Assembly (NCBI RefSeq): GCF_020042345.1
Contig: NZ_CP083387.1
Location: 1,922,001-1,986,000 of the forward strand
Direction: 5' to 3'
DNA: 64,000 bases
Source: Arachidicoccus terrestris
Lineage (GTDB): Bacteria > Bacteroidota > Bacteroidia > Chitinophagales > Chitinophagaceae
The notes beneath the pieces are model-generated. The model saw only the letters and a program-made list of their open reading frames with translations, had not been told where the DNA came from and searched no databases. Position numbers and translations under genes: made by a program. Every line of letters begins with the position of its first letter. Position 1 is the stretch's first letter. Positions 33,925 to 47,729 of the stretch are shown here, one piece after another.

Positions 33925-34980
33925 ATGAAAAATTCCACCCTGACTGACCTATTGAAAATGGAAATCTTTGACGAAAACGGCATCCAATATCCAATTAAGG
34001 AAGGATTTCCGGAAGACAGGATTTCAAAGTCCTACAGAATCAACAATGCACTGGCCTTCCATGTTCCGATCGGCGCCAGGAATACAATGCTCTTTCAACT
34101 GATCATCACTGAAAGAGGTACCATCTGTATCAGCAACTACATCTTTCCCGAAAAAAAGACGATTATCTGTCGGTCACCGGCCGCTATTCTGGAGGTATAC
34201 TCGACACTGGGCGGAAAAATAGATATACATTTAGAAAATGACCAAATAAGAAGCGCCAACGCCGGTACATATAACGTTATGGCTGCGCCATCAGTTTTTA
34301 ACAGGGCTACGTTTGAAGGCAATATCTTAACGGTCGATTTCCATCCAGACCCTGAATACATCGCAGAACTGGCCAAAACATATCCTCAATTAACGAAGAT
34401 CATTAATGCCGACAGAAAAGGCTATATCGAGACACTTCATAAAGAAGAGGGCAACATGCCATTCCTGGCGGCGTTCCTATACGTAGATCTTATCCGAAAA
34501 ATACATGAAGAAAATATAAACATGCAAACCAGAACGGAGTTGATGCATCCCATTATTGCGCTCATGGTAGATCCTCAAGGAAGTACCTTTACTGAAATCC
34601 AACTCAATTATGAAAAATTGATGGCAGTCTCACACATGGTGGCCTATGTCAAAAACAACCTGGAACTCAACTATACTGTAGCAGACCTACAAAAGCTGTC
34701 TACAAAATTCAACGCGCTTCGTTACAATGAAATTCTCATCAGCTTTAAAGCCATTTACAAGAAAACGCCCATAGCCTACATTAAGGAACTCAAGATGTTA
34801 GCGGCCAAAACCTATTTGGATAAGGGCAAACGGGAAAGCACCGTCGCATCCAGATTGGGCTATAGCTATTTATCACATTTAGAGCGGGACTTTAAAGCGT
34901 ACCATGGGATCAGCATTAAAGAATACAAAAAGGCGACAAAGGACAAAGATGCCATCAACCTCCACAAACGTGACCATTAG
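33925..34980 (+). CDS. AraC-type transcriptional regulator
   Basis: A 351-residue regulator. The C-terminal ~100 residues form an AraC/XylS double helix-turn-helix: VAYVKNNLELNYTVADLQKL, NEILISFKAIYKKTPIAYIK, ELKMLAAKTYLDKGKRESTV and SRLGYSYLSHLERDFKAYHG (the typical A-x-x-x-G-Y-x-x-x-S-x-x-x-R-x-F-K pattern). The N-terminal ~250 residues have no domain I recognise; they include strand-rich stretches and may sense a ligand. It lies directly upstream of the small DUF6520 gene on the same strand, so it is a good candidate for its regulator. A link to the SusCD block is inferred from position only. Confidence 0.9.
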   Translation: MKNSTLTDLLKMEIFDENGIQYPIKEGFPEDRISKSYRINNALAFHVPIGARNTMLFQLIITERGTICISNYIFPEKKTIICRSPAAILEVYSTLGGKIDIHLENDQIRSANAGTYNVMAAPSVFNRATFEGNILTVDFHPDPEYIAELAKTYPQLTKIINADRKGYIETLHKEEGNMPFLAAFLYVDLIRKIHEENINMQTRTELMHPIIALMVDPQGSTFTEIQLNYEKLMAVSHMVAYVKNNLELNYTVADLQKLSTKFNALRYNEILISFKAIYKKTPIAYIKELKMLAAKTYLDKGKRESTVASRLGYSYLSHLERDFKAYHGISIKEYKKATKDKDAINLHKRDH

Positions 34981-35486
34981 CGCATAACAAAAAAATTGGC
35001 TACTTTTTCTATCAAAATCTGGTTAGTTTTTAGGTCATAGAATGGCTAGCAACTGTCCAATAGTATCATCAATTTTACAGTAGAAAAAGAATCGGGGAGT
35101 ATGTCCAGAAAAACATGCTCCGATTCAAAAAGGTAAAAATGATTAAAACTATGGCGCAGTTATGTTATCCTATTGTTCCAACATATTACAATGTATCAAC
35201 ACATCTGGCCTAAACACCGGAACAATAACGAATCTATTCCATGAACTACATTATGGCTGGGTGGTTTGTTTTGATATCAGGATTCTGTCGGTCAACTTGC
35301 CTGGCAGAATCCAACTCAAAACTGAGTCCCGGCCTCTTCTTAAGGATTACACAGGCAAATCCGGTTTTATCTGTAGATTGGTCTTTATTCTAGCTAAGAT
35401 AGGATAAAGGCCGTTTACTGAAAAAAGAAAATTCTTCTCTTTGACACATTACAAGAGTCAAAACGATAATCATTAAATTCAAAAAA
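34981..35486. other. Leader/intergenic region between the AraC and DUF6520 genes
   Basis: 506 bases. An 81-codon open frame (35162-35407) has no recognisable features and I do not accept it. The final 130 bases are AT-rich and should hold the promoter of the small gene. No clear hairpin seen. Confidence 0.45.
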
Positions 35487-35816
35487 ATGAAAAATATAAA
35501 AAAGCACCTCCTGTCTTTAGTTGCAGCCTTAATCGCTGTGGCAGGAGTCTGGGCTATGCATGCAACAAAGCATAGTAGCCAGAAATTCGACACCTACTAC
35601 TATCATTACCTAGGCAATGATGATCAACTATCTTCTTATCAAACTCAATCCAACTGGGAGCTTCTCTCAGAACCAGACGCTCCTGGCTGTTCTATTGGTT
35701 CAATTCCCTGTGTGGTCGAGTCTGATCAGAATACAGTTCAGAACTTCGTTTCTTCTATTGTAAGCAAAACCGACGTAGAAGGTCACGAATATTCAAAAAG
35801 GAATCCAACTCCTTAG
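35487..35816 (+). CDS. DUF6520-type small exported protein
   Basis: A 109-residue protein. The N-terminus is hydrophobic (LLSLVAALIAVAGVWAM) and fits a signal peptide or anchor. The mature part ends in a conserved-looking cysteine pair, GCSIGSIPC (Cys68, Cys75; C-x6-C), which could be a disulfide. The pattern matches the DUF6520 family of small Bacteroidota proteins, whose function is unknown to me. It converges with the SusCD-TlpA operon across a bidirectional terminator and follows an AraC-type regulator. A role as a secreted peptide or ligand of the SusCD system is speculation. Confidence 0.75.
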   Translation: MKNIKKHLLSLVAALIAVAGVWAMHATKHSSQKFDTYYYHYLGNDDQLSSYQTQSNWELLSEPDAPGCSIGSIPCVVESDQNTVQNFVSSIVSKTDVEGHEYSKRNPTP

Positions 35817-35832
35817 TTGTTGGAAAAAATGT

Positions 35833-35861
35833 AAAGAAGGTGGTTTTTGACCACCTTCTTT
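35833..35861. terminator. Bidirectional terminator between the DUF6520 gene and the SusD gene
   Basis: aaagaaggtggt / accaccttcttt with a 5-base loop, inside a wider gtaaa...tttac pairing. T-rich on both sides. Confidence 0.88.
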
Positions 35862-35875
35862 TTACAAAACAATCG

Positions 35876-37240
35876 CTACCGAGGATTCTGCTTTATATCG
35901 GAGTTCTCTATTATATCTTTAGGAATCGCTACTGCATAACGCAAATCACCAGGCGGCAGTATATACTCTTTACCACCAATAGTTCTTTTCAATGTAATAT
36001 CAGCCCCCTCTTTATTAAATCGCTTAATATCAATCCATCTCAGTCCCCGGAAAAGCAATTCTTTCACACGTTCATTGAGAATCCACTCTAACACCTCTTT
36101 GGCGTCATTCGATTCTCTTAAAGTGAAAGAGCCTTTGAGATATCTTTTCTGAAGTAAAAAATTAAGATCCTTAAGAGCCAAATCGAGTTTCGCCTGCCTC
36201 GCCAAACATTCAGCCCTCATCAAATAAAGTTCGTCACTGGCAATACCCCCAAATGCGGCAAACGTATTATTATAACTACCACAGAACATTTGTGAACCAT
36301 CCTTATTTCCATAAAAAAACAACGGCTTTCGCAAATCATTATCATCAAACATCTGATAAATAGTTGAATCAACGTTATTATAAGCCGCAAAGGTCATATA
36401 CAACGTCGTTTCATAGATTACTTCAGGGCCAAATCGCTCAAACGGATAACGCATTGAAGTATCAACTGTATTATAGTCTAATAAATAGCTAAAATACTTT
36501 AATGCCTCATTTGAGTAAAAGAAAGCACTATCGTACATTCTCATCGATAAATACACTCTTGCAAGTTCGCCACAAGCGGCAGGTTTAGAGGCACGAAAAA
36601 CATGGGCGGCCTTTTTCGGAAGGAAACCTATAGACGCCTTTAAATCCGATATGATTTGTCTATAGGTATCTTCTAGATTGCTCCTGACGGACGGAACGTT
36701 AAAATCTGTTCCCAATCTTAGAGGAATGCCAAGTTTTGTTTCGGAATTTCCTTTATCATATGCTTCAGCCCAAACCATTGCCACTTCGAAAAATGACCGT
36801 CCTCTTAAGAACAACGCTTCTCCTTTCACATTGTCCCACTCGTCCTTGTTAACCGGATCACGATCAATCTTCGATATCACTTCAAGAGCAGTATTAGCCC
36901 TATAAATATTATCATACGATCTAACCCAACCATTATCCTTACTATCGATTACGTCTTCGTCTTCCCATATATACATTCTTCTATCTTCATCAACATATAA
37001 CCCTTCGAACTGGGATTCAGTTAAATAATACTCGTCGGCACAGGTTAATCCGGCTCCCACCCCATAGTTAATTCTGGAATAGTCATCCATTAATGCCTGC
37101 AAATCAACCAAATTACTCGGAATCGCCAAGCTTTTGTCACTTTTACTACTAAGATACTTCTTGCACCCTGCATTTAATAACAGCGTTAACGCGCCAGTAA
37201 GGATTAGAAAGTAGCTGGCCAATGAAATCTTTTTACTCAT
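35876..37240 (-). CDS. SusD/RagB family lipoprotein (short type)
   Basis: A 454-residue SusD homologue, shorter than the others in the window. Signal peptide with lipobox NAGC (Cys26), then KKYLSSKSDKSLAIPSNLVD, a start typical of SusD proteins paired with TlpA. VKGEALFLRGRSFFEVAMVW supplies the family TPR helix and DELYLMRAECLARQAKLDLA with ERVKELLFRGLRWIDIKRFN the C-terminal signature. It is the last gene of the operon, 10 bases after the SusC stop, and is followed by a bidirectional terminator. Confidence 0.93.
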   Translation of the reverse strand: MSKKISLASYFLILTGALTLLLNAGCKKYLSSKSDKSLAIPSNLVDLQALMDDYSRINYGVGAGLTCADEYYLTESQFEGLYVDEDRRMYIWEDEDVIDSKDNGWVRSYDNIYRANTALEVISKIDRDPVNKDEWDNVKGEALFLRGRSFFEVAMVWAEAYDKGNSETKLGIPLRLGTDFNVPSVRSNLEDTYRQIISDLKASIGFLPKKAAHVFRASKPAACGELARVYLSMRMYDSAFFYSNEALKYFSYLLDYNTVDTSMRYPFERFGPEVIYETTLYMTFAAYNNVDSTIYQMFDDNDLRKPLFFYGNKDGSQMFCGSYNNTFAAFGGIASDELYLMRAECLARQAKLDLALKDLNFLLQKRYLKGSFTLRESNDAKEVLEWILNERVKELLFRGLRWIDIKRFNKEGADITLKRTIGGKEYILPPGDLRYAVAIPKDIIENSDIKQNPR

Positions 37241-37250
37241 CTCGTTATAT

Positions 37251-40200
37251 TTAAAATTGAATGTTTAAACCTATTGAATAATCTCTTGACGGCGGAATCA
37301 AATAATCTCTATAATCAGGGTCAATTCCTCTATTGTTAGCCCGCCAAATAATTCCTACATTATTAATCACAAAATACACTTTGAAATGCAACCTCTTATT
37401 AGCTTTCGAGCTCCAATCATACCCAAAATTTATGTACTGAAGCCGTATATTATCGCCCTTCTCAATCAAAACCTCTGAAGCATTGTAAAACCTGGCCCTT
37501 GAATTACTTGTTGGATTGATAAAAGATGGCACATTCGTCGTCAGCTCATCTCCCGGCCGCTTCCACCGATTTGAATAATCTTTATGGCCACTTAAGGAAA
37601 ATTTTAGGTTATTATAATTAATCGAAGACCTCATAAAATAAAAGCCGAACTCATAGCCGAATCTCGCTGCCAAAGAAAACCCCTTCCATTTGAGCGTATT
37701 GCCCAACGAGCCAAAGACCCGAGGCATGGCTGGGCCGGCATACTTAAGATCACCAATTGAAGTCCCATTACCAGTAATGCTGTTATAATCTTTACTTACC
37801 TTCCCATCCAGAAGGCCTTGCGGATCTCCGGTTTCGGGGTCCAGCCCGGCCCATCGATAGCCAAATACAGCATACACAGGATATCCTACTAACCCATTAA
37901 TACCTGTACCACCGGTTATAAAATAGTCCCCATTCTTCTCGCCAAGATAATAATCAGTGACCTTATCTCTATATAAGTTTAGGTTCAGTTCAGTCAGCCA
38001 TTTGAATTCCCCATCTATATTCTTTGAGTTTATTTTAAAGTCCCATCCATTGCCATGCATAGCTGCTACATTCTTGGTAATACTGGTTATCCTTAACCCG
38101 ACAGTCCTGTCAAGATAATACGGACCATATAAGTTCTGACCATTCTTATGATAATATTCCATAGATCCGGATATCACATTATTCCTAGTAGAGAAGTCTA
38201 GCCCGATATTTAACATCCCTGTCTGTTCCCACTGTAATTCTGGATTATTAAAATTTGTGAAATTTGCGATAAATGACTTTGTATATTTGGATACATCATA
38301 TAAGTTAATTGTAGTCACCGCCGCAAGGCTCATATCTACATTTCCGCTATACCCATAGGTTAAGCGTGCTTTTAAATAAGGAATTAGATCAGAATTATAA
38401 AAATCTTCGGCAGAAACCTTCCATGCAAGTCCGGCCGACCAAAGAGGAGTCCATCTATTGTTCGTAGTTACACCAAAAACATTAGATGCATCTCTTCTCG
38501 CACTGGCTGATAAAGTATATTTTCCTTTATAAGTATAAGCGGCATTCGTGTAAACTAAAATAAAACGACTCAATTTACCATCTACCGAGGGAGCTCCAGG
38601 AATAAAAGAGTTGCTACCAGTTGGAAGTAATGGATAGTAATTGGCATAATCAACATCTATACTAGTGGCCAGATCATCATTATAGCCGTATAGCGAATAT
38701 CTGGAACTTGTTGTTTTGGTCTGGCTAATTTCCCAGCCAGCCAAGACATTTAACTGGTGATCGCCTTTACTTAAATTATAATTCAATTGCATCCTGCCAT
38801 GATGTGATAAAATCTGCTCCTCGCTTGTATTTAATATACCTCCTTGTGGTAAAACATATGTCACCTCATTATTAGCCCAGTCTATCTGAGCAAATTGATT
38901 AATGAGATTCCTCGCGTAATAGCTTTTTTTATCATAAAGGCTTCTATTATCGACATCCTGCCGTTCAAACTGATACTTAGCAGTGAGTGTAAAGCCAAAA
39001 GGCAACTGGTAAGTCAGCCCCAGATTCCCCAGAAAATCGCTGGTACGGGCTGTTATATCGTTATACTTATAATCAATAGCCGGATAATAATGCCAATCGT
39101 CCAATAGGCCTCCTCCAATTGTATCTATATATGTTTGGCGATAATCCAAATACATGGCATTAGGGCTACCATCGGTTTTCAAAAAAGAATAATATTGAGG
39201 CATAACAATATTTGAGTACCTGATAGTTCCGTAAGCAGGCTTACCTGACTTGCTTTTTGAGTATGTATACATTAATCCGGCATTGATGGTAAAGTCTTTC
39301 GCGACTTTGAAAGAGTTGGAAGAGTGAATACTAACCCTGTTATGCTTTGCCGTCAAATCACTTAAATTGTCGTCATATGCAGCCGTTAATGAATAAGCGA
39401 CCTTATCGCCTCCTCCATTAAAGCTCAGATTATATTGTTGATGGATCGCATTTTTATAAAACAACTTTTTGAAATCATCTTTAACGTCATGGTTTTTAAA
39501 ACCATTCAATAATTCATCAGCTGTATTTCCATCAATTTGGCCGTTTCTTCGCTGAAACAATACCTCATAGACTGGAGAAAATGGAGGCCTGTTATATCTC
39601 GAAGTGTCAGAAAACCTGTATTCCTGATCAAATAGCTCCTCTTCAAACTCCACTAAATCTTTCGAGGTCATTGTTGGCAGGTAATCCAGATTCGGTGGCG
39701 AAGTAATTGTAAGATTCGATGTAAAACTTATCCTGCTACTGGAATTGAATCTACCTTTTTTCGTGGTAATTACAATTACGCCATTACCGGCTCTTGCTCC
39801 CCAAATTGATGCTGCAGCAGCATCCTTTAAGACAGTTATACTTTCAACCTCATTCGGATTAATATTACTAATATCGCCATCATAAGGAAAGTTATCAAGT
39901 ATAATCAATGGCTCTTTCGGCCCCTCAATTGTACTCAACCCCCGGACAGACATCTGGCCTTCAGTATTTGTTTTGTAGTTCACGGAAACTCCATTAGCAA
40001 TAAATCGGAGTCCGTCTAACACATTCACTCTCACCTGCTCATTATACAATTTGTCACCAATTAAATCAAAGGAGCCTGTTGACCTTTCTTTCGGAATTGT
40101 CTGATAGCCCGTATTTACTTCGACGACATTCAATTCATTGGATCGGGGGACTAAATAAATCGCAAAGGTCGTATCGCCTTTGCCTAATGGGGTCGCCTTT

Positions 40201-40439
40201 GCCTCAAATCCCACATGGTACAGATATAATGTGTCAGACTTTGGAACATTAAAACTAAAGTTGCCGCCAACCCTCGATGTGATTGCAGTACCTGTAGCAG
40301 ATGACCTTATCGTCACACCGGACACCGGTGCTCCCGTATTCTTGTTATATACTTTACCTTTTACCAGTATACTTTTGTCCTGTGCATTGGCACACAACAT
40401 TGAAGTAACCATTAATACAGCAATAATGATTTTTTTCAT
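37251..40439 (-). CDS. SusC/RagA family TonB-linked outer-membrane transporter
   Basis: A 1062-residue SusC homologue. Signal peptide (VLMVTSMLCANAQ), a carboxypeptidase-regulatory-like domain (LVKGKVYNKNTGAPVSGVTI, ~24-105), and a plug with SVRGLSTIEGPKEPLIILDN and SITVLKDAAAASIWGARAGN, the SusC signature, here with IWGARAGNGVIVI. The barrel ends in SIGLNIQF. No STN domain. It is placed between TlpA (18 bases upstream) and SusD (10 bases downstream) in one operon. Because of the thioredoxin partner I infer a peptide or cysteine-containing ligand rather than a plain glycan, but this is not proven. Confidence 0.95.
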   Translation of the reverse strand: MKKIIIAVLMVTSMLCANAQDKSILVKGKVYNKNTGAPVSGVTIRSSATGTAITSRVGGNFSFNVPKSDTLYLYHVGFEAKATPLGKGDTTFAIYLVPRSNELNVVEVNTGYQTIPKERSTGSFDLIGDKLYNEQVRVNVLDGLRFIANGVSVNYKTNTEGQMSVRGLSTIEGPKEPLIILDNFPYDGDISNINPNEVESITVLKDAAAASIWGARAGNGVIVITTKKGRFNSSSRISFTSNLTITSPPNLDYLPTMTSKDLVEFEEELFDQEYRFSDTSRYNRPPFSPVYEVLFQRRNGQIDGNTADELLNGFKNHDVKDDFKKLFYKNAIHQQYNLSFNGGGDKVAYSLTAAYDDNLSDLTAKHNRVSIHSSNSFKVAKDFTINAGLMYTYSKSKSGKPAYGTIRYSNIVMPQYYSFLKTDGSPNAMYLDYRQTYIDTIGGGLLDDWHYYPAIDYKYNDITARTSDFLGNLGLTYQLPFGFTLTAKYQFERQDVDNRSLYDKKSYYARNLINQFAQIDWANNEVTYVLPQGGILNTSEEQILSHHGRMQLNYNLSKGDHQLNVLAGWEISQTKTTSSRYSLYGYNDDLATSIDVDYANYYPLLPTGSNSFIPGAPSVDGKLSRFILVYTNAAYTYKGKYTLSASARRDASNVFGVTTNNRWTPLWSAGLAWKVSAEDFYNSDLIPYLKARLTYGYSGNVDMSLAAVTTINLYDVSKYTKSFIANFTNFNNPELQWEQTGMLNIGLDFSTRNNVISGSMEYYHKNGQNLYGPYYLDRTVGLRITSITKNVAAMHGNGWDFKINSKNIDGEFKWLTELNLNLYRDKVTDYYLGEKNGDYFITGGTGINGLVGYPVYAVFGYRWAGLDPETGDPQGLLDGKVSKDYNSITGNGTSIGDLKYAGPAMPRVFGSLGNTLKWKGFSLAARFGYEFGFYFMRSSINYNNLKFSLSGHKDYSNRWKRPGDELTTNVPSFINPTSNSRARFYNASEVLIEKGDNIRLQYINFGYDWSSKANKRLHFKVYFVINNVGIIWRANNRGIDPDYRDYLIPPSRDYSIGLNIQF

Positions 40440-40457
40440 ATATGATCTTCTTTAAGA

Positions 40458-41720
40458 TTAGTAAGCAGTTATATTCGGTTTGAGTTTATCTCTGATTATC
40501 AGCATCCTTATTTTTCTCTTGGCAGGTTTCAGTTCATATCCATACTTTCTCAATACGCCCGATAAAACAACCGGATTATGAATATTCTCTCTTTTTAGGT
40601 TAATATGTACGGTTGAAGAGTCCCCAGTTTCGTCTAGCACAATAGGTACAATGAGATTTCCGAATAATTGACTATTCATACTTGCCACCATCCCCTCAAT
40701 TGATCTGTATAAGAGACCTTCGCGTGATCTCACTTCAGCAGTATCGGCTTTATTCGCTTTAGTAAGCACCCAACAATCCACAAGGCGGTTTTCAACGGAA
40801 AGTTCATAATCTGTAAAAACGCTGAACTGCCGTAATAACCACTTACCAATCTTATTATCACTCCAGGCTGTTGGAACAATATACTCCAAACAGTATGTAT
40901 TCGCCGTTCTCCATGCATAAGCTAGGGCATCAGTCGTTACAAATTTGGATGAATCCTTCACCTCCAGCACAATTCTGTTATCAACATTCAGGAATCCGGC
41001 GGCCTTCTCCAGCAATTCAAGTAGGGTTCTGTTGACTTTCGTGTAGCGCGTAAAGGACTTATCTTTACTTTCTCGGACATACCCCATAGCGGGAACGCCA
41101 GTTATTGCTTTGGACAGAAAAAATTGCCCCATGCCAATTTCTGTCGAATTGACCTCCAGATTTTTGACTAAGGATTGATCAAAATCATAATGTACCCTGT
41201 CTTTTTTAACCGGAAGGTCGATTTCGTTTTCCTTAAGCAAAATATCAATCGACGAGTCGTTCAAAAATTCTGGATAAGTTATAGCGGCAACTGTTCCTCC
41301 TTTAATAAATACCTCATGCGGGAGATATTTATTGGGAAACAGCTTACGCAATACAGTATCCTCCACTATAAACGGTAGTTTGAATCCTTTGGCAATCGCC
41401 TTTGTCTTAAGCATCTTTTCTACTTTTTCACGCGGCTCTCTTGTAACAATAAAAATTTCCAACTTTTCTCCATATTTTGCCTTCAGTGAATCCAGATGCG
41501 GAAATAAGGCCAGACAGGAACTGCACCAGGTACTGAAAAAGTCCAGCACGACCACTTTATCCTTTAATTTATTATACGGTACGGAGGAATAAGAGGCATT
41601 AATAACATTCGTAAATATCATTTCCGGGAAACGATCACCTACCTTCAATGGTCGAACAGATTGGGCACAGCATACTTCGGCAAGGCATAAGAATGCCACT
41701 ACCATAATAAACATCTTCAT
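40458..41720 (-). CDS. TlpA-like thioredoxin with C-terminal DUF3738-like region
   Basis: A protein of 420 residues from the ATG at 41720, which starts a signal peptide (MKMFIMVVAFLCLAEVCCAQ); the ATG at 41750 adds ten residues before it. Residues ~25-170 are an AhpC/TSA-TlpA thioredoxin fold with VVVLDFFSTWCSSCLALFPH, so the redox pair is C-S-S-C (Cys66 and Cys69). A conserved cis-proline lies in KYLPHEVFIKGG. Residues ~190-420 form a second domain (LLELLEKAAGFLNVDNRIVL, YSIEGMVASMN-like segments, LSGVLRKYGYELKP) that resembles the DUF3738 part found in many Bacteroidota TlpA proteins. It opens the SusCD operon. It is probably periplasmic and reduces or isomerises disulfides of the imported substrate. 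Confidence 0.88.
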   Translation of the reverse strand: MKMFIMVVAFLCLAEVCCAQSVRPLKVGDRFPEMIFTNVINASYSSVPYNKLKDKVVVLDFFSTWCSSCLALFPHLDSLKAKYGEKLEIFIVTREPREKVEKMLKTKAIAKGFKLPFIVEDTVLRKLFPNKYLPHEVFIKGGTVAAITYPEFLNDSSIDILLKENEIDLPVKKDRVHYDFDQSLVKNLEVNSTEIGMGQFFLSKAITGVPAMGYVRESKDKSFTRYTKVNRTLLELLEKAAGFLNVDNRIVLEVKDSSKFVTTDALAYAWRTANTYCLEYIVPTAWSDNKIGKWLLRQFSVFTDYELSVENRLVDCWVLTKANKADTAEVRSREGLLYRSIEGMVASMNSQLFGNLIVPIVLDETGDSSTVHINLKRENIHNPVVLSGVLRKYGYELKPAKRKIRMLIIRDKLKPNITAY

Positions 41721-42158
41721 GTGGTTATTCGAATTAAAGTTTAATAACAATTAAGCAATTGGCAATTTGGCCGGTACAAACAATCCAGGTTAAGAGATCA
41801 TTTGCATTCATTTCAATAATAGGTAGGTTCAAAATATATTCTAGAAACAGCGGTTAGCTATTCCATCGTTATAGCATTGTTTCATTAATTCATCAACAGA
41901 AAAATCCTACGTTTAGCTTACATAATTGTTTTATTCAAGAGTTGATTTAGCCAGCTCATCGAATGGTTCACTTACGCATAAATAAAATATAACGCATTGA
42001 TTTCTTGTCAGTTAATTCATATATAGGCAAATATCATTCTTAACAGACTCAAAGATACTGATAAAAATCCAATAAAAATAAATATTTATCAGTAAAATAT
42101 ATCGTTTTTTCATCCCTATTAAGATATATGTTAGGCATGAACCTCATTTTTTTGCTAT
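41721..42158. other. Divergent intergenic region between TlpA operon and XRE regulator
   Basis: 438 AT-rich bases. A minus-strand TATCTTTG at 42057-42050 fits the -7 consensus for the TlpA-SusCD operon, giving a leader of about 325 bases. No clear -33 box, no hairpin and no gene. The HTH protein encoded at 42159 may bind here. Confidence 0.5.
42050..42057 (-). promoter_or_regulatory. Candidate -7 box for the TlpA-SusCD operon
   Basis: Minus-strand TATCTTTG fits TAnnTTTG. The partner -33 element is not visible at the usual distance. Confidence 0.3.
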
Positions 42159-42569
42159 ATGGCAGAAAAAATAGGTGATATAATAAGGGCGAGGATTGAC
42201 GAACTTGGCTATACGCAAAAGCAGGTAGGTGAGAAAATCCACCGTTCACAGAAGACGATACAGAGCCTACTAAACTCAACGACAATTTCCAGTCAGCGCT
42301 TGATTGAGCTTAGTGAGGTACTTAATTGCAACTTATTTCTTTTTTTTACCAGGCCCGGCGGCCCGCTGGAAAGATTTGCCCCTGAATCCTGCGATGAAAT
42401 CCGAAATGAAAACGTGGCGTTGAAAGAAAAAGTCTCCAAACTGGAAGATCTGGTGGACAGAATGCAATCAGATCTGGATCATCAGAGGGAGGTTGTCGCA
42501 TATATGAAACAGACACTGGAGATTCAACAGGCCTATATACAGAACATGAGCCCAAACAAGGACAAATAG
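42159..42569 (+). CDS. XRE-family helix-turn-helix regulator with C-terminal coiled coil
   Basis: A 136-residue DNA-binding protein. Residues ~3-62 form an XRE (Cro/CI) helix-turn-helix: IGDIIRARIDELGYTQKQVG, RSQKTIQSLLNSTTISSQRL, IELSEVLNCNLFLFF. The C-terminal ~55 residues (RNENVALKEKVSKLEDLVDR and following) form a coiled coil, probably for dimerisation. It lies divergent from the TlpA-SusCD operon, so it may regulate that operon; the link is from position only. A weak hairpin follows. Confidence 0.88.
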   Translation: MAEKIGDIIRARIDELGYTQKQVGEKIHRSQKTIQSLLNSTTISSQRLIELSEVLNCNLFLFFTRPGGPLERFAPESCDEIRNENVALKEKVSKLEDLVDRMQSDLDHQREVVAYMKQTLEIQQAYIQNMSPNKDK

Positions 42570-42717: not shown

Positions 42718-44325
42718 TTAAAAATTGCTGCCTTTTACATCCCACCAGAGCCTTGTTCCTCCGTTGTCTTCACCTCCCAGTAGGTTCTGGACAGCCTCTT
42801 TCACAGCAGAGCCGTTATCTGTAGAATATTCAACTGCCGGGTAAGGAAGACGCCTGATCTGCTCCTCGGTACTGATGGAACCACCACTGTTATTATGTAC
42901 GACGGGAAATAATTTAGGATAACCCGTTCTGCGATAATCAGCCCATGCCTCCTGACCTTCCGGGAAAACAGCGAGCCATTTCTGCGTAATGATCCGCTCC
43001 AATTGCCGCTCTTTGCTGGCAGTACCATCCCATTTAATCGTAATCGTACTAAGTGCCGCACTATTGTTCGCAGCGTTTTTAGGATCCACATACGCGGCTT
43101 GCTTTGAGGTATTGTCACTTAAGTAATTACCTATTTTTACTCCCCACTGGTCCATGGAAGTCTTAACGCCCGTTTCATAATCTTCTTTTATATCACCGGC
43201 ACCGGCCCAGCCTCTAAGCGCCGCCTCCGCTTTCAGAAACCAACACTCGGCTGCAGTCATTACATACTGAGGAGAAGTCTGCTTAAAATTTTCAGCGGTA
43301 TTCAATGACGCATAACCTACATAATCTGCCTTGGCATTAATTGCAATTCCGATACGGATCCCGATATATTTACCGGCCAGTTTAGGATCCTTTGCCGGAG
43401 TCGCATAGGCTGATATTCTGGGATCATGATACCCGGTCAGGTAGGTTCCGAGTGAGGCCCCTAACCTGTTATCTCCCCAGGATTCTGTAATCTGCCATAA
43501 ATCATTGTTTCTGCCACCTGACTGCTGGACCTTAGCATCGTCAGCAGGCACTGTAAGCAGTCCTGCCTGCTGAGCCAGCGCTTTTTCTCCCTGCGTTTTA
43601 GCCAGTTCCGGATCAACCTTTGAAACACGCATAGCCAGTCTCAACCTAAGAGAATTGGCAAACTTGATCCATTGGGTATAATCTCCCTGATAGATCAAGT
43701 CGCCATCTCCCAGTGTTGATTTGCCGGGATTAGCAGCCACATAGGTGGTGAGGTTAGCAACAGCAGTGTCTAATTGTTTAAAGAAAGCTTCGTATACAGT
43801 TTTCTGATCATCGTAGGGGACAGACTTCACAGAGGTCCCTGCTTGGGTATAGGGAATGGGCCCAAAACGGTCCGTTACCCTATCCATCGCTTCAACCTGC
43901 AGAATTAAAGCGACTGCCCATAAATCAGGTAAATTCTCTCTTGCCCCTACTTCCGCAATTTTCTTAACAGGTGCCATCACCAGATTATAAGGATCTTTAA
44001 ATCCATTCTGATTCCAACTATCCGTCAGCGCGTAATTGAGATTATAGTTAGCAGAAAAAGGCGTCGGCGACATCATATAGCCACTGTAAGCATCTGCGCT
44101 TAGGTTCTGCGCCGTCTGGTAATTGCTGAAAATGGCCTGTTCGATAGGCCCGTATGCAGTGCTGAGTTTAGCTATCGTCTGCGCGTCATTTAAGGCGTTA
44201 GGGTTTGTATTATACTCTTCAAAGTTCTTGGTACAGGACCCTAACGTTAATAATAGACCGGAAAGCACCATTAAGGCCGTACCGGAGCGTTTAGAAATAT
44301 ATTTATTAGATGTATGTGTATGCAT
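42718..44325 (-). CDS. SusD/RagB family lipoprotein (SusD-like_2 type)
   Basis: A 535-residue SusD homologue of the type paired with ECF/FecR-controlled SusC proteins. Lipobox LGSC (~Cys31), then TKNFEEYNTNPNALND, the N-terminal pattern of the SusD-like_2 group. Also visible are VKKIAEVGARENLPDLWAVA, LQVEAMDRVTDRFGPIPYTQ, WIKFANSLRLRLAMRVS and TAAECWFLKAEAALRGW. The C-terminus has ERIITQKWLAVFPEGQEAWA DYRRTGYP. It is the last gene of the ECF sigma-FecR-SusC cascade, 32 bases after SusC. Confidence 0.95.
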   Translation of the reverse strand: MHTHTSNKYISKRSGTALMVLSGLLLTLGSCTKNFEEYNTNPNALNDAQTIAKLSTAYGPIEQAIFSNYQTAQNLSADAYSGYMMSPTPFSANYNLNYALTDSWNQNGFKDPYNLVMAPVKKIAEVGARENLPDLWAVALILQVEAMDRVTDRFGPIPYTQAGTSVKSVPYDDQKTVYEAFFKQLDTAVANLTTYVAANPGKSTLGDGDLIYQGDYTQWIKFANSLRLRLAMRVSKVDPELAKTQGEKALAQQAGLLTVPADDAKVQQSGGRNNDLWQITESWGDNRLGASLGTYLTGYHDPRISAYATPAKDPKLAGKYIGIRIGIAINAKADYVGYASLNTAENFKQTSPQYVMTAAECWFLKAEAALRGWAGAGDIKEDYETGVKTSMDQWGVKIGNYLSDNTSKQAAYVDPKNAANNSAALSTITIKWDGTASKERQLERIITQKWLAVFPEGQEAWADYRRTGYPKLFPVVHNNSGGSISTEEQIRRLPYPAVEYSTDNGSAVKEAVQNLLGGEDNGGTRLWWDVKGSNF

Positions 44326-44357
44326 GATCTTGTATTTTTTCGTTTGTCGCGTTTACA

Positions 44358-47300
44358 TTAAAAGGTTAAGTGAAGGCTGAGTCCCATGTAACGGGTAGCC
44401 GGCTGATTAAAGACATCCACCCCGGAGAGGCCATTACCAGTGGACATAGTCAGCTCGGGATCAAAAGGAGCTTTCTTGTAGAAGTATATCAGATTACGGC
44501 CGATCAACGATGCTTTTATGCTATGGAAAAAACTGTTTTTAACCGGAAACGTATAACCCAAAGAAGCCTCACGCAATCTGACGACCGTTGCACTGTATAT
44601 ATAAGGTTCAGAGATGCCGGAACGGCTTCCGATAGCGCCGTACCATACTTTAGGATCGACTTTGGTGACAGCATTCCCGGCCTCATCAACGCCGTTTACA
44701 GCTACATACCCTCTGTCTCTGGCATCGCCGGTCTCTTTAGAGACACCGTATTGATCCAGCACCATTTGTGTCATGGAAAGAACGTGCCCGCCGAACCGGC
44801 CATCGACCAGAAAACTCAGGCTAAAGTCCTTATACTGCAGACTGTTGCTCCAGCCCAGCTGAAAGGTCGGATTAGGATTTCCCAAGTAACCGAACCCATT
44901 ACTTTCCGGGCGGTAAGGGTCGTCATCTGTACCGGAACCTGAGAAAATAACCCTGCCCTGTTCGTCTCTTTTAAAAACGACACCAGAAATATCCCCATAA
45001 GAACCGCCTTTCGCAATAATAGATTGATAAGAGTTATTCCCGTTATCGGTCAGGATAAACTGATCAATACCGTTCTTAGCATCCAGGTCAATGATTTCAT
45101 TTTTATTGCTGGCACCGTTAAATCCTGAGTTCCAGGTGAAATCTTCACTTTTGATCACATCTCCGTTGACGGTAAACTCGATACCCGTATTTTGTATATT
45201 ACCGGCATTGACATAACCCTTGGAGATCAACGAAGCGATTGCAGGCTGGATCGGAATATATTGATTTCTTGTGTTTGTTTTATAATAAGTAACACTTAGA
45301 TTTAACCGGTCATGAAAGAAACGCCAATCTGTACCAAATTCAAAAGAGTTTGTCTTTTCTGGTTTTAACTCAGTGAACGGCGCCGCTGTGTTAAACTGCA
45401 GCTGACCGGCACTGTTTTGTGTATTCTGCACCCGGGTCAGATAAGGCGGCACCGTGTTACCGACCTGAGCATAAGTACCTCTGATCTTTCCATAATCTAC
45501 AAATGCCGGCATCTTAAGCACCTGAGAAATGATCAGAGACAACCCGGCAGAGGGATAGAAATAAGAAAAATTCGGCGTAAAAGACAGGTTGGAAGACCAG
45601 TCATTTCTGCCGGTTAAAGTCAAAAAAGCCCAGTTATCATAAGACAGATTGGCATTGGCAAATATGGATTGCAGCTGACTATGATTAGGTATAACCGGTT
45701 TAGCATTACTTAATGTGACAACAGTGGAACCTGCCAGACCGGCTATCGTATTATCGGAGGAGAAGAAATCCCGTGTAGATAACTCCCCTGCGACCGTCAG
45801 GCCATCCAGTTTAGAATCGGTGATGCTGGCACCCACAATACCGCCTACCTTAAACTTAGCAGCCGGATTAGGATCATTGACGGTCAAAATCACGTCACCA
45901 TATTTCTGGGTAAAGGTCTGGTTGCTGAGATTCATATAGCCATTCCCGTTGGCATCAAAAACCTTGCTGGTTCCGGAATATCGATCATTTTCAAAACGGT
46001 CTGTTGTACGGTCCATATTACCCCTTAATTGGATATTCAGCCATTTGGTAAATTCATATTTGACATTACCACTGAGAATGATTCTGTTTCTGTTCGCAAC
46101 GCTGATGTCTTTATTCAGGATCCACCAGGGATTTTGCTCGATATCCGCTATCTCCGGCCAGTTCTGCCTGGCTTCTCCGATCGAATCCGGATTCAGGTAG
46201 TTTGTTTTATAGGGCATAATATCCACACCTCTTGGAAAAAGGTAAAGACCTGTAAGCGGGTTTAGATATAAACCCAAGGCAGGGCTATTATTGATCTTTT
46301 GATTAACGAACATGACATTCCCGTCTACAGTTAATTTGTTGTTGAGAAAGTGTCCTGTCTCTCTAAAATTAAAATTATTACGAGAGAGTTTGTTGCCCGG
46401 CTCGGTCCCTCTGGCAGAAACATTGGCATATGACAGATAGGTCTGTGCCTTTTCTGAACCGGCAGAGAAACTTACTGAATTGGTCCAGTTGGTCCCATTT
46501 TGAAAAAACTCATCCAGGTTATTTCGGGAAGAGCCGTTGATCTTGTCTCCCCAACTCTGAAACCCTGTCCCGTCTGTTGGGCCATAACTATTTTGAAGCT
46601 CAGGCTCATAAGCAATATGATCCAGGGAAAAGCTTGAGTTCACCTGAATCGTCGCGTTGCCGGCTTTCCCTTTTTTAGTGGTGATCAGGATAACCCCGTT
46701 TTGTGCCTGGCTGCCATAGAGCGCAGCAGCAGAGGCTCCTTCCAATACGGAAATGCTTTCAATGTCTTCCGGATTCAGATTAGAAATACCATCCCCACCG
46801 TCAGGACCGCCTCCAAAAGTGCCGTTTTGCTGTCCATTTGCATTGGCAGAGTTCGTAATAGGCACGCCATCGATCACATAAAGAGGTTGGTTATTTCCAT
46901 TGGCAGAGCGGCTTCCCCTTAAGATGACCTTCGCAGACCCGCCTACGCCGGACGCGCTGGGCGAAATCGTCAATCCTGCTACTTTACCATTCAGGGAGTT
47001 CATCATATTATCAGTCTTGACGGTGTTGAGCTGGTCACCGCTAACACTCTGAACATTATAAGACAGCGATTTCTGCGTTTGTTTCACACCAAGGGCCGTC
47101 ACCACAAGATCCTGTAACCCAGATCCCGGCAATGGCTTCATAGTAATAGCCAGCGTATTTTGACCGGCAACTGAGACCTCCTCAGTCTGATACCCCACAT
47201 AACTTACAACAAGTGTGGCGCCATCCGGCACCTCAAGCGTAAAAGCGCCATTATCTGCTGTAATGGTGCCTTTATTGGTGCCTTTAATCTGAATGCTGAC

Positions 47301-47729
47301 CCCTGCCATAGGCTGACCTGCTTCATCTTTCACCGTTCCGGATACCTTTTTGAGTTGCGCTTCCGCCATAGACCGGGATATTATGATCACCCTGTTATCC
47401 AGCATCTTATAATTAAGGCGCGTTCCGGAAAATAAGTTTTTCAACAGATCATTCAGTGGGATATCTTTCTCTTTTAAGTTGATCAGCGTGTTTTCAGGTA
47501 ACTGGTTGTCGCTATAAAAAAAGCGGCAATTGGCCTTCTGCTCAATAGAGGACAACGCTTCCTTTATGGTCGCATTTTTAAATTTCACCGTCAGTTTTTG
47601 GGAATAGGTTCTGGCCGATACCTGCAAACAGGTGGCCAGTAATAAAACAACACTGAGCTTCATGTAGAGAATTGCTTTTAAGCGGAGCTTCCCAATAGGA
47701 TACCCCCTATGAAACGAACATTTTTTCAT
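44358..47729 (-). CDS. SusC/RagA family transporter with N-terminal STN signalling domain
   Basis: An 1123-residue SusC homologue that should both import and signal. After the leader (ILYMKLSVVLLLATCLQVSA) a secretin/TonB short N-terminal (STN) domain is seen at ~40-120: LTVKFKNATIKEALSSIEQK, CRFFYSDNQLPENTLINLKE, LFSGTRLNYKMLDNRVIII. It is followed by a carboxypeptidase-regulatory-like domain (VSGTVKDEAGQPMAGVSIQI), the plug with VILRGSRSANGNNQPLYVID and SVLEGASAAALYGSQAQNGV, and the barrel ending in YMGLSLHLTF. The STN domain contacts the anti-sigma FecR (next gene upstream), so ligand binding would release the ECF sigma factor. No CAZyme lies beside it. Confidence 0.95.
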   Translation of the reverse strand: MKKCSFHRGYPIGKLRLKAILYMKLSVVLLLATCLQVSARTYSQKLTVKFKNATIKEALSSIEQKANCRFFYSDNQLPENTLINLKEKDIPLNDLLKNLFSGTRLNYKMLDNRVIIISRSMAEAQLKKVSGTVKDEAGQPMAGVSIQIKGTNKGTITADNGAFTLEVPDGATLVVSYVGYQTEEVSVAGQNTLAITMKPLPGSGLQDLVVTALGVKQTQKSLSYNVQSVSGDQLNTVKTDNMMNSLNGKVAGLTISPSASGVGGSAKVILRGSRSANGNNQPLYVIDGVPITNSANANGQQNGTFGGGPDGGDGISNLNPEDIESISVLEGASAAALYGSQAQNGVILITTKKGKAGNATIQVNSSFSLDHIAYEPELQNSYGPTDGTGFQSWGDKINGSSRNNLDEFFQNGTNWTNSVSFSAGSEKAQTYLSYANVSARGTEPGNKLSRNNFNFRETGHFLNNKLTVDGNVMFVNQKINNSPALGLYLNPLTGLYLFPRGVDIMPYKTNYLNPDSIGEARQNWPEIADIEQNPWWILNKDISVANRNRIILSGNVKYEFTKWLNIQLRGNMDRTTDRFENDRYSGTSKVFDANGNGYMNLSNQTFTQKYGDVILTVNDPNPAAKFKVGGIVGASITDSKLDGLTVAGELSTRDFFSSDNTIAGLAGSTVVTLSNAKPVIPNHSQLQSIFANANLSYDNWAFLTLTGRNDWSSNLSFTPNFSYFYPSAGLSLIISQVLKMPAFVDYGKIRGTYAQVGNTVPPYLTRVQNTQNSAGQLQFNTAAPFTELKPEKTNSFEFGTDWRFFHDRLNLSVTYYKTNTRNQYIPIQPAIASLISKGYVNAGNIQNTGIEFTVNGDVIKSEDFTWNSGFNGASNKNEIIDLDAKNGIDQFILTDNGNNSYQSIIAKGGSYGDISGVVFKRDEQGRVIFSGSGTDDDPYRPESNGFGYLGNPNPTFQLGWSNSLQYKDFSLSFLVDGRFGGHVLSMTQMVLDQYGVSKETGDARDRGYVAVNGVDEAGNAVTKVDPKVWYGAIGSRSGISEPYIYSATVVRLREASLGYTFPVKNSFFHSIKASLIGRNLIYFYKKAPFDPELTMSTGNGLSGVDVFNQPATRYMGLSLHLTF

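Follow-up and report, generated by a model that had tools for sequence, protein, structure and literature searches.

What does a small exported protein with a pair of cysteines do beside a SusCD transporter operon led by a thioredoxin? The question is raised by a block of six genes at positions 33925-42569 of a 64,000-nucleotide stretch of DNA from Arachidicoccus terrestris (hereafter the window), which belongs to a single contig of 4.9 Mb. SusCD pairs, which rank among the main importers in the outer membrane of Bacteroidota, are commonly interpreted as nutrient systems, mostly for glycans. In gene order, the block represents a two-armed cassette that recurs elsewhere. An importing arm, in which SusC and SusD are usually joined by a third enzyme, lies tail-to-tail with a secreted arm made of the small cysteine-pair protein, often of a MauE protein and, in part of the loci, of a regulator. 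The view that these genes belong together is supported. A SusCD subgroup that, in several families, is tied to such a small protein, and often to MauE, points to a function that the nutrient reading does not foresee, and the DUF6520 family, together with the MauE genes beside it, gains a concrete partner and context. The 83 SusD_RagB matches found in this one 4.9-Mb genome are a measure of how many such transporters await explanation.

Gene content of the block

The original prediction, made from the DNA letters, described an AraC-type regulator, a small exported protein with a C-x6-C pair, a thioredoxin with a CSSC motif leading a SusCD operon and an XRE-type regulator. All of these were located among the gene calls, which are longest-open reading frame (ORF) calls:

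33925-34980, plus strand: AraC-type regulator (Pfam HTH_18, 42.5 bits), which opens the small-protein arm
35487-35816, plus strand: small exported protein, DUF6520-like, of 109 aa, with the pair C68-x6-C75 (Pfam, alignment, AlphaFold)
35833-35861, no strand: hairpin, perfect 12-bp stem, in the gap that separates the small gene from susD (sequence)
35876-37240, minus strand: SusD-like surface lipoprotein of 454 aa (Pfam SusD-like_3, 112.6 bits, and alignment)
37251-40439, minus strand: SusC-like TonB-dependent transporter of 1062 aa, without an STN match (TIGR04056, 480 bits; Pfam)
40458-41705, minus strand: TlpA-like thioredoxin with a W-C-S-S-C motif (Pfam Thioredoxin/AhpC-TSA), first gene of the operon
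42159-42569, plus strand: XRE-type regulator (Pfam HTH_3, 35.1 bits), divergent from the TlpA-SusCD operon

The minus-strand operon reads TlpA-SusC-SusD, and its succession of a SusC barrel gene and a SusD lipoprotein gene is the gene layout of SusCD/RagAB-type systems. The small gene lies outside this operon, convergent with susD, and the hairpin common to both is, from its sequence, likely a terminator that serves the two genes. The first protein of the operon combines a thioredoxin-family match with a CxxC motif, as expected of a TlpA/ResA-like protein, and carries a C-terminal extension that matches nothing in Pfam; the XRE protein has a coiled-coil tail (judged by eye). None of the six block genes codes for a carbohydrate-active enzyme, so the block does not qualify as a polysaccharide utilisation locus. 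Window positions 42718-47729, just past the XRE gene, encode another SusD (559 bits with Pfam SusD-like) and another SusC, this one matching STN; the GC content of both is ordinary.

A recurrent pairing

The pairing of the two arms was examined from several starting points. In a first test, one set of 59 genomes was searched for the small protein and, independently, for TlpA, and 40 neighbourhoods of the matches were read. The two kinds of match lie about 5 kb apart, in convergent arrangement, in the window genome, in a genome of the same genus that holds the nearest relative of the locus (G002) and in genome G012; in G021 they lie about 7 kb apart in a mirrored arrangement. An extra, weak small-protein match in the window genome adjoins a second TlpA gene, which reveals a second cassette copy with the same layout.

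In a second test, an alignment of SusD (21 rows) was used to select 80 loci, the best 80 of 568, among them loci of Pedobacter, Sphingobacterium, Chitinophaga, Pontibacter, Mucilaginibacter and Niabella. A convergent ORF for an exported protein with a C-x5-8-C pattern was found within about 2.5 kb of SusD in 59 of the 80 and within 200 bp in 54. Once a profile search free of the cysteine rule was added, a small protein convergent to SusD was present in 66/80 loci, in some of which intervening genes separate the two by up to 2.8 kb; three of the 14 loci without one end at a contig edge. A TlpA-like gene lies within 7 kb in 68/80. As a control, the 30 best of the 83 PF07980 matches in the window genome, none from the clade of the window SusD, were examined under the same 200-bp rule, and none has such an ORF (0/30 versus 54/80); chance ORFs occur 391-1067 bp away from three of them. 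The gap between the small gene and SusD has a median of 46.5 bp in the 54 loci, and an inverted repeat of at least 9 bp is present in 47/54 of these gaps versus 0/54 base-shuffled gaps.

The third test started from the small protein, with a profile of 60 rows run against 395 Bacteroidota genomes. Matches were obtained in at least 9 of the 395, a lower bound because few candidates were scored per genome and the second copy of the window genome was missed. In each of the 11 neighbourhoods other than that of the window, the small gene faces a SusCD operon. The Pfam model DUF6520 scores above its cut-off in 24/395 genomes, at 31 places. Twenty of these places, from 16 genomes, were read on wide stretches, 18 of which come from one family (f24), and in 20/20 a SusC-SusD pair is convergent with DUF6520 and MauE. 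Five other places were already among the loci (L193, L196 and L237-L239), and six were left out of the wide reading (in G138, G329, G346 and G305, and one each in G366 and G374), of which L267 and L275 look unrelated. In L298 the DUF6520 match is on the convergent strand, the ORF so labelled in the wide reading being an antisense ORF, and in L306 the arms are separated by a single gene.

The co-occurrence of the small protein with SusCD-TlpA, a check proposed with the original prediction, is borne out in both search directions (66/80, 11/11 and 20/20). For the full set of five genes it holds in part, as AraC and XRE recur at constant positions but in fewer than half of the loci. Relatives of the window AraC lie on the small-protein side and on the same strand in 19/80 loci (21 of 31 matches are in that place), and relatives of XRE lie divergent from TlpA in 21/59 TlpA-first loci (26 of 37 matches). 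Both counts were obtained with profiles built iteratively from the window proteins and are probably lower bounds. In several Pedobacter loci a protein of about 200 aa, Crp-like by eye, stands in the AraC place; the one that was tested (L136) gave no match in Pfam. The small gene is present in 4/10 loci that have a FecR-like gene and a long SusC versus 58/63 others (Fisher p 4e-4), in a post hoc contrast for which FecR was called from gene length and place and 7/80 incomplete loci were excluded.

The small exported protein

The label DUF6520 originally given to the window protein fits its signal-like N-terminus (judged from hydrophobicity) and its cysteine pair, but the score against the Pfam family (PF20130) is 21.1 bits, under the curated cut-off of 25.4. 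Five cassette homologues in the equivalent convergent position (L193, L196, L237, L238 and L239) do pass the cut-off, and a signal-like N-terminus and cysteines are common to the family and the cassette protein. Several f24 members of DUF6520 differ in having four cysteines, not two (by eye).

Exactly two cysteines follow residue 22 in 59/59 aligned small proteins, where they form the sole invariant columns, although partly by construction since these proteins were picked by the C-x5-8-C rule. The pair is also found in all 43 profile matches picked without that rule, a number that stands for about 37 distinct loci, includes a few matches with E >0.01 that are possibly due to chance, and comes from a profile that itself contains the cysteines. 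At least six of the 43 duplicate seed loci (L046=L119, L047=L132, L052=L146, L054=L090, L055=L111, L062=L139), and the same double counting affects the 107 small genes and the 101 TlpA sequences counted below. The mature part is acidic in 54/59 small proteins.

The small gene is under purifying selection, with omega between 0.08 and 0.40 wherever it was computable (11 of 14 pairs). Its conservation is about that of SusD and SusC in the closest pairs and somewhat lower in more distant ones. Across 47 loci, the distance matrix of the small protein correlates with those of SusD (r 0.80), SusC (0.77) and TlpA (0.65). In partial correlations, the value for SusD (0.22) was reached by 0/300 permutations, and the values for SusC (0.12) and TlpA (0.13) by 20/300 each.

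AlphaFold modelled the small protein with a mean pLDDT of 80.5 and a pTM of 0.63, the block means of pLDDT being 50-58 over residues 1-30, 86-97 over residues 31-100 and 83 at the end. Strands are predicted at 37-41, 57-60, 73-79 and 101-105 and helices at 48-51, 84-90 and 94-98. A folded domain of about 70 residues, from about residue 36 to 107, is predicted, and this model argues against a short free peptide. No solved relative was found by sequence, and a structural comparison with 19 chains yielded none.

Two observations concern the region ahead of the small gene. The spacer between AraC and the small gene contains, at 35345-35407 (plus strand), the conserved tail D[YF]xGKSGFI of a possible micro-ORF. 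In Arachidicoccus ginsenosidivorans the same motif precedes the small gene at two loci (L043 and L054), in a spacer that has otherwise diverged, and the codon differences within GKSGFI are all at third, synonymous positions, as if the micro-ORF were translated; the pattern also arises by chance in L101 and L107. Besides, a DUF805b RNA (RF02914) lies directly upstream of the small gene at L114:11818-11852 and L133:6959-6993, and its pattern precedes 32 of the 107 small genes, even where a MauE gene of the same direction lies upstream. It is a general element and is not present at the window locus. In L106, a further DUF805b copy precedes a cysteine-rich protein with a leader-like KKISGG start.

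Thiol enzymes and peptidases around the transporter

In many loci, the protein of about 148 aa encoded upstream of the small gene is MauE (PF07291, 95-103 bits in the three tested). MauE lies within 4 kb in 37/80 SusD-selected loci, and it is present in 9/11 small-protein-profile neighbourhoods and in 27/30 short DUF6520 stretches; in a 28th (L273) it shows on the wider stretch L303. It is present in the second cassette copy of the window genome. On the other arm, the CxxC motif of TlpA is kept in 98/101 aligned sequences, some loci being counted twice. The link to disulfide handling, drawn at the outset from the thioredoxin, is strengthened by the MauE beside the small protein and by the conserved cysteine pair. 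To judge from the protein families, which also suggest the directions of the two reactions, MauE would oxidise and TlpA would reduce the small protein or its cargo.

On the wide DUF6520 stretches, MauE is often about 500 aa long, with a C-terminal part that has no Pfam match, or is adjoined by such a protein. In family f24, with L262:2-1396 and L257:1878-2924 as examples, a domain of about 350 residues without Pfam match is fused to MauE or stands beside it, and by eye it looks like a beta-propeller.

The third gene of the importing operon varies. It is a relative of S9 peptidases in 18 of the 20 wide DUF6520 stretches, a Met-zincin in one and TlpA in one. A wider search with a SusD profile matched in 36/395 genomes, and 20 further neighbourhoods were read. 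Those of family f27 (L237-L240) and L242 (f23) contain a cysteine-pair protein and MauE, L241 contains MauE and no clear cysteine-pair protein, and L256 ends about 300 bp past SusD and is uninformative. Of the 12 loci L243-L254 (f24/f30), nine have S9, M16 or Met-zincin peptidases in place of the small protein and MauE. The SusCDs of the wider clade are thus linked to polypeptide handling, and one branch of them to the small protein. The TlpA, S9 and metalloprotease third genes suggest a polypeptide cargo, which is plausible because S9, M16 and Met-zincin peptidases adjoin related SusCDs. The original interpretation is thereby supported in part; a disulfide-containing peptide as the SusCD substrate, and the DUF6520-like protein as that peptide, are proposals.

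Possible functions of the cassette

The explanation that we prefer, tentatively, regards the small protein as a partner of the SusCD encoded beside it, secreted and oxidised, which this transporter either takes in or receives cargo from. It would leave the cytoplasm via Sec, and MauE would oxidise its two cysteines to a disulfide, a step that in the window genome might be carried out by the MauE of the second cassette copy. The protein would fold into an acidic domain of about 70 residues and would be dedicated to the cognate SusCD, most probably as an imported ligand or as a cargo-delivering protein. Once in the periplasm, what arrives would be reduced by TlpA or cleaved by a peptidase. The secreted arm would be controlled by AraC, or by the Crp-like protein, and the importing arm by XRE. 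Such a partner is favoured because the pairing is found in both search directions and in two copies in the window genome, with MauE nearby, a cysteine pair on one side and the CxxC of TlpA on the other, and also because of the purifying selection, the covariation with SusD, the peptidases beside related SusCDs and the folded model. The pairing occurs in many Bacteroidota, and the membrane thiol enzyme that often adjoins it may oxidise the small protein. The more general proposal, a phylum-wide class of SusCDs that works with a self-made, secreted, MauE-oxidised protein carrier or signal, returned via its own importer and undone by TlpA or a peptidase, is possible and for now rather doubtful.

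Several observations weigh against an imported or delivering partner. The small protein is missing in 11 of the 77 loci that have sequence beyond SusD, and 13 of the 20 further SusD relatives (L243-L255) have neither the small protein nor MauE. MauE was not found in 43/80 SusD-selected loci, and it is missing from the window locus itself, where no remnant scored, and from the nearest relative of that locus. No peptidase of the kinds found in the wider clade lies near any of the 80 close SusD-selected loci. A folded domain, as predicted, would be an awkward cargo for SusCD, and the covariation with SusD could come from the shared ancestry of a linked locus.

The folded and mostly acidic domain, the covariation with SusD and the peptidases in 9/12 distant SusD loci and 19/20 wide DUF6520 loci would also suit an accessory, in the periplasm or at the surface, that assists a SusCD in peptide uptake and is never imported, for example a subunit, a chaperone or an inhibitor tuning the peptidase or TlpA step. 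Such a role is conceivable, if somewhat unlikely: the small gene lies outside the operon, often with a regulator gene of its own, and a peptidase inhibitor would lack its target in the close loci because no such peptidase is found there. The regulator genes, which some loci have on each arm, together with the several paralogous cassettes per genome, could instead be the mark of a self-signal that is secreted, re-imported or sensed through SusCD and switches genes controlled by AraC/XRE or FecI-FecR. That the small gene is rarer where a FecR-like gene accompanies a long SusC (4/10 versus 58/63, post hoc), as if one sensing route took the place of the other, points the same way. However, close pairs are under purifying selection and do not show fast divergence, a folded domain of 70 residues is large for a pheromone, and AraC is present in only 19/80 loci, so that a self-signal is considered improbable.

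The low omega argues as well against an antibacterial protein matured by MauE and TlpA, with SusCD as its receptor or as an incidental neighbour. Dedicated thiol oxidases do adjoin small secreted disulfide peptides in sublancin loci, but a producer that carried the receptor would put itself at risk, and the gene orders showed no conspicuous, recurring gene for immunity or export, although no family-level search for such genes was made; an antibacterial function is accordingly given little credence. Finally, the genes might be merely neighbours in a co-inherited block without shared function. The AT-rich composition of the block, a gene order shared with A. ginsenosidivorans that possibly reflects an old linkage, and the 3/5 same-genus genomes without a match to the window small protein would fit mere neighbourhood. 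This is nevertheless very improbable, as the pairing recurs with differing third genes, in several families and in both search directions, and 0/30 other SusDs show it; the counts already make it unlikely.

Relation to known systems

The closest parallel on the importing side is RagAB of Porphyromonas gingivalis (RagA-RagB), which belongs to the same SusC and SusD families; the peptidase neighbours in the wider clade of the window SusCD are a further likeness. RagA and 8ypu are solved relatives of the window SusC, and RagB is among those of the window SusD, whose best solved match is 8ypt. RagAB is not known to have a small cysteine-pair partner or a MauE.

On the secreted side, the MauE/MauD pair of methylamine dehydrogenase loci offers a likeness, in that MauE and a thioredoxin-like protein accompany an exported cysteine-pair protein. 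The cassette differs in its SusCD partner, and no methylamine dehydrogenase gene was noticed in the gene orders. Sublancin-type bacteriocin loci encode a small secreted disulfide product with its own thiol oxidase and a thioredoxin-like protein. Unlike these, the cassette includes SusCD and its small protein has a signal-peptide-like N-terminus; no double-glycine leader was seen by eye in the small proteins, and no peptidase-containing ABC transporter is present among the block genes. The NVEALA peptides (PF14055) of Bacteroidota are likewise small, exported and cysteine-containing, and are found in 2/395 genomes. They differ from the cassette in that the four stretches examined (L318-L321) yielded neither a SusC nor a SusD call. 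The NVEALA leader motif is absent from the window small protein as read, and PF14055 has no match at E <= 1e-4 in the window genome. In those four stretches, from two genomes, the NVEALA genes sit among rows of lipoprotein-like genes of about 350 aa (by eye).

Literature searches gave no description that joins MauE and SusD genes or that mentions DUF6520, in agreement with the initial statement that no published role was known for this gene set.

Base composition and age of the block

The region had also been described as visibly more AT-rich than its surroundings. The GC content of the block is 0.391 versus 0.444 in the remaining window, and the lowest value among 153 sliding windows of the same length (8.6 kb) that do not overlap it is 0.4325. 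The description is accurate for the SusCD-TlpA arm and the spacers, since the low GC is carried by SusD, SusC and TlpA (0.39-0.40; third positions 0.37-0.40) and by the spacers, but not for AraC and XRE, whose third-position GC is 0.50, like the surroundings. Of the refuting conditions set at the outset, lack of co-occurrence and lack of a GC difference were examined, and they did not refute the prediction.

A very recent insertion of the block is excluded by A. ginsenosidivorans, which has the same gene order, including XRE and the neighbouring SusC. A match to the window small protein is absent in three of five same-genus genomes, some of which hold other cassette copies. In the A. ginsenosidivorans locus L043, the orthologous AraC and SusC are each broken into several ORFs, which may reflect decay of the locus or assembly errors.

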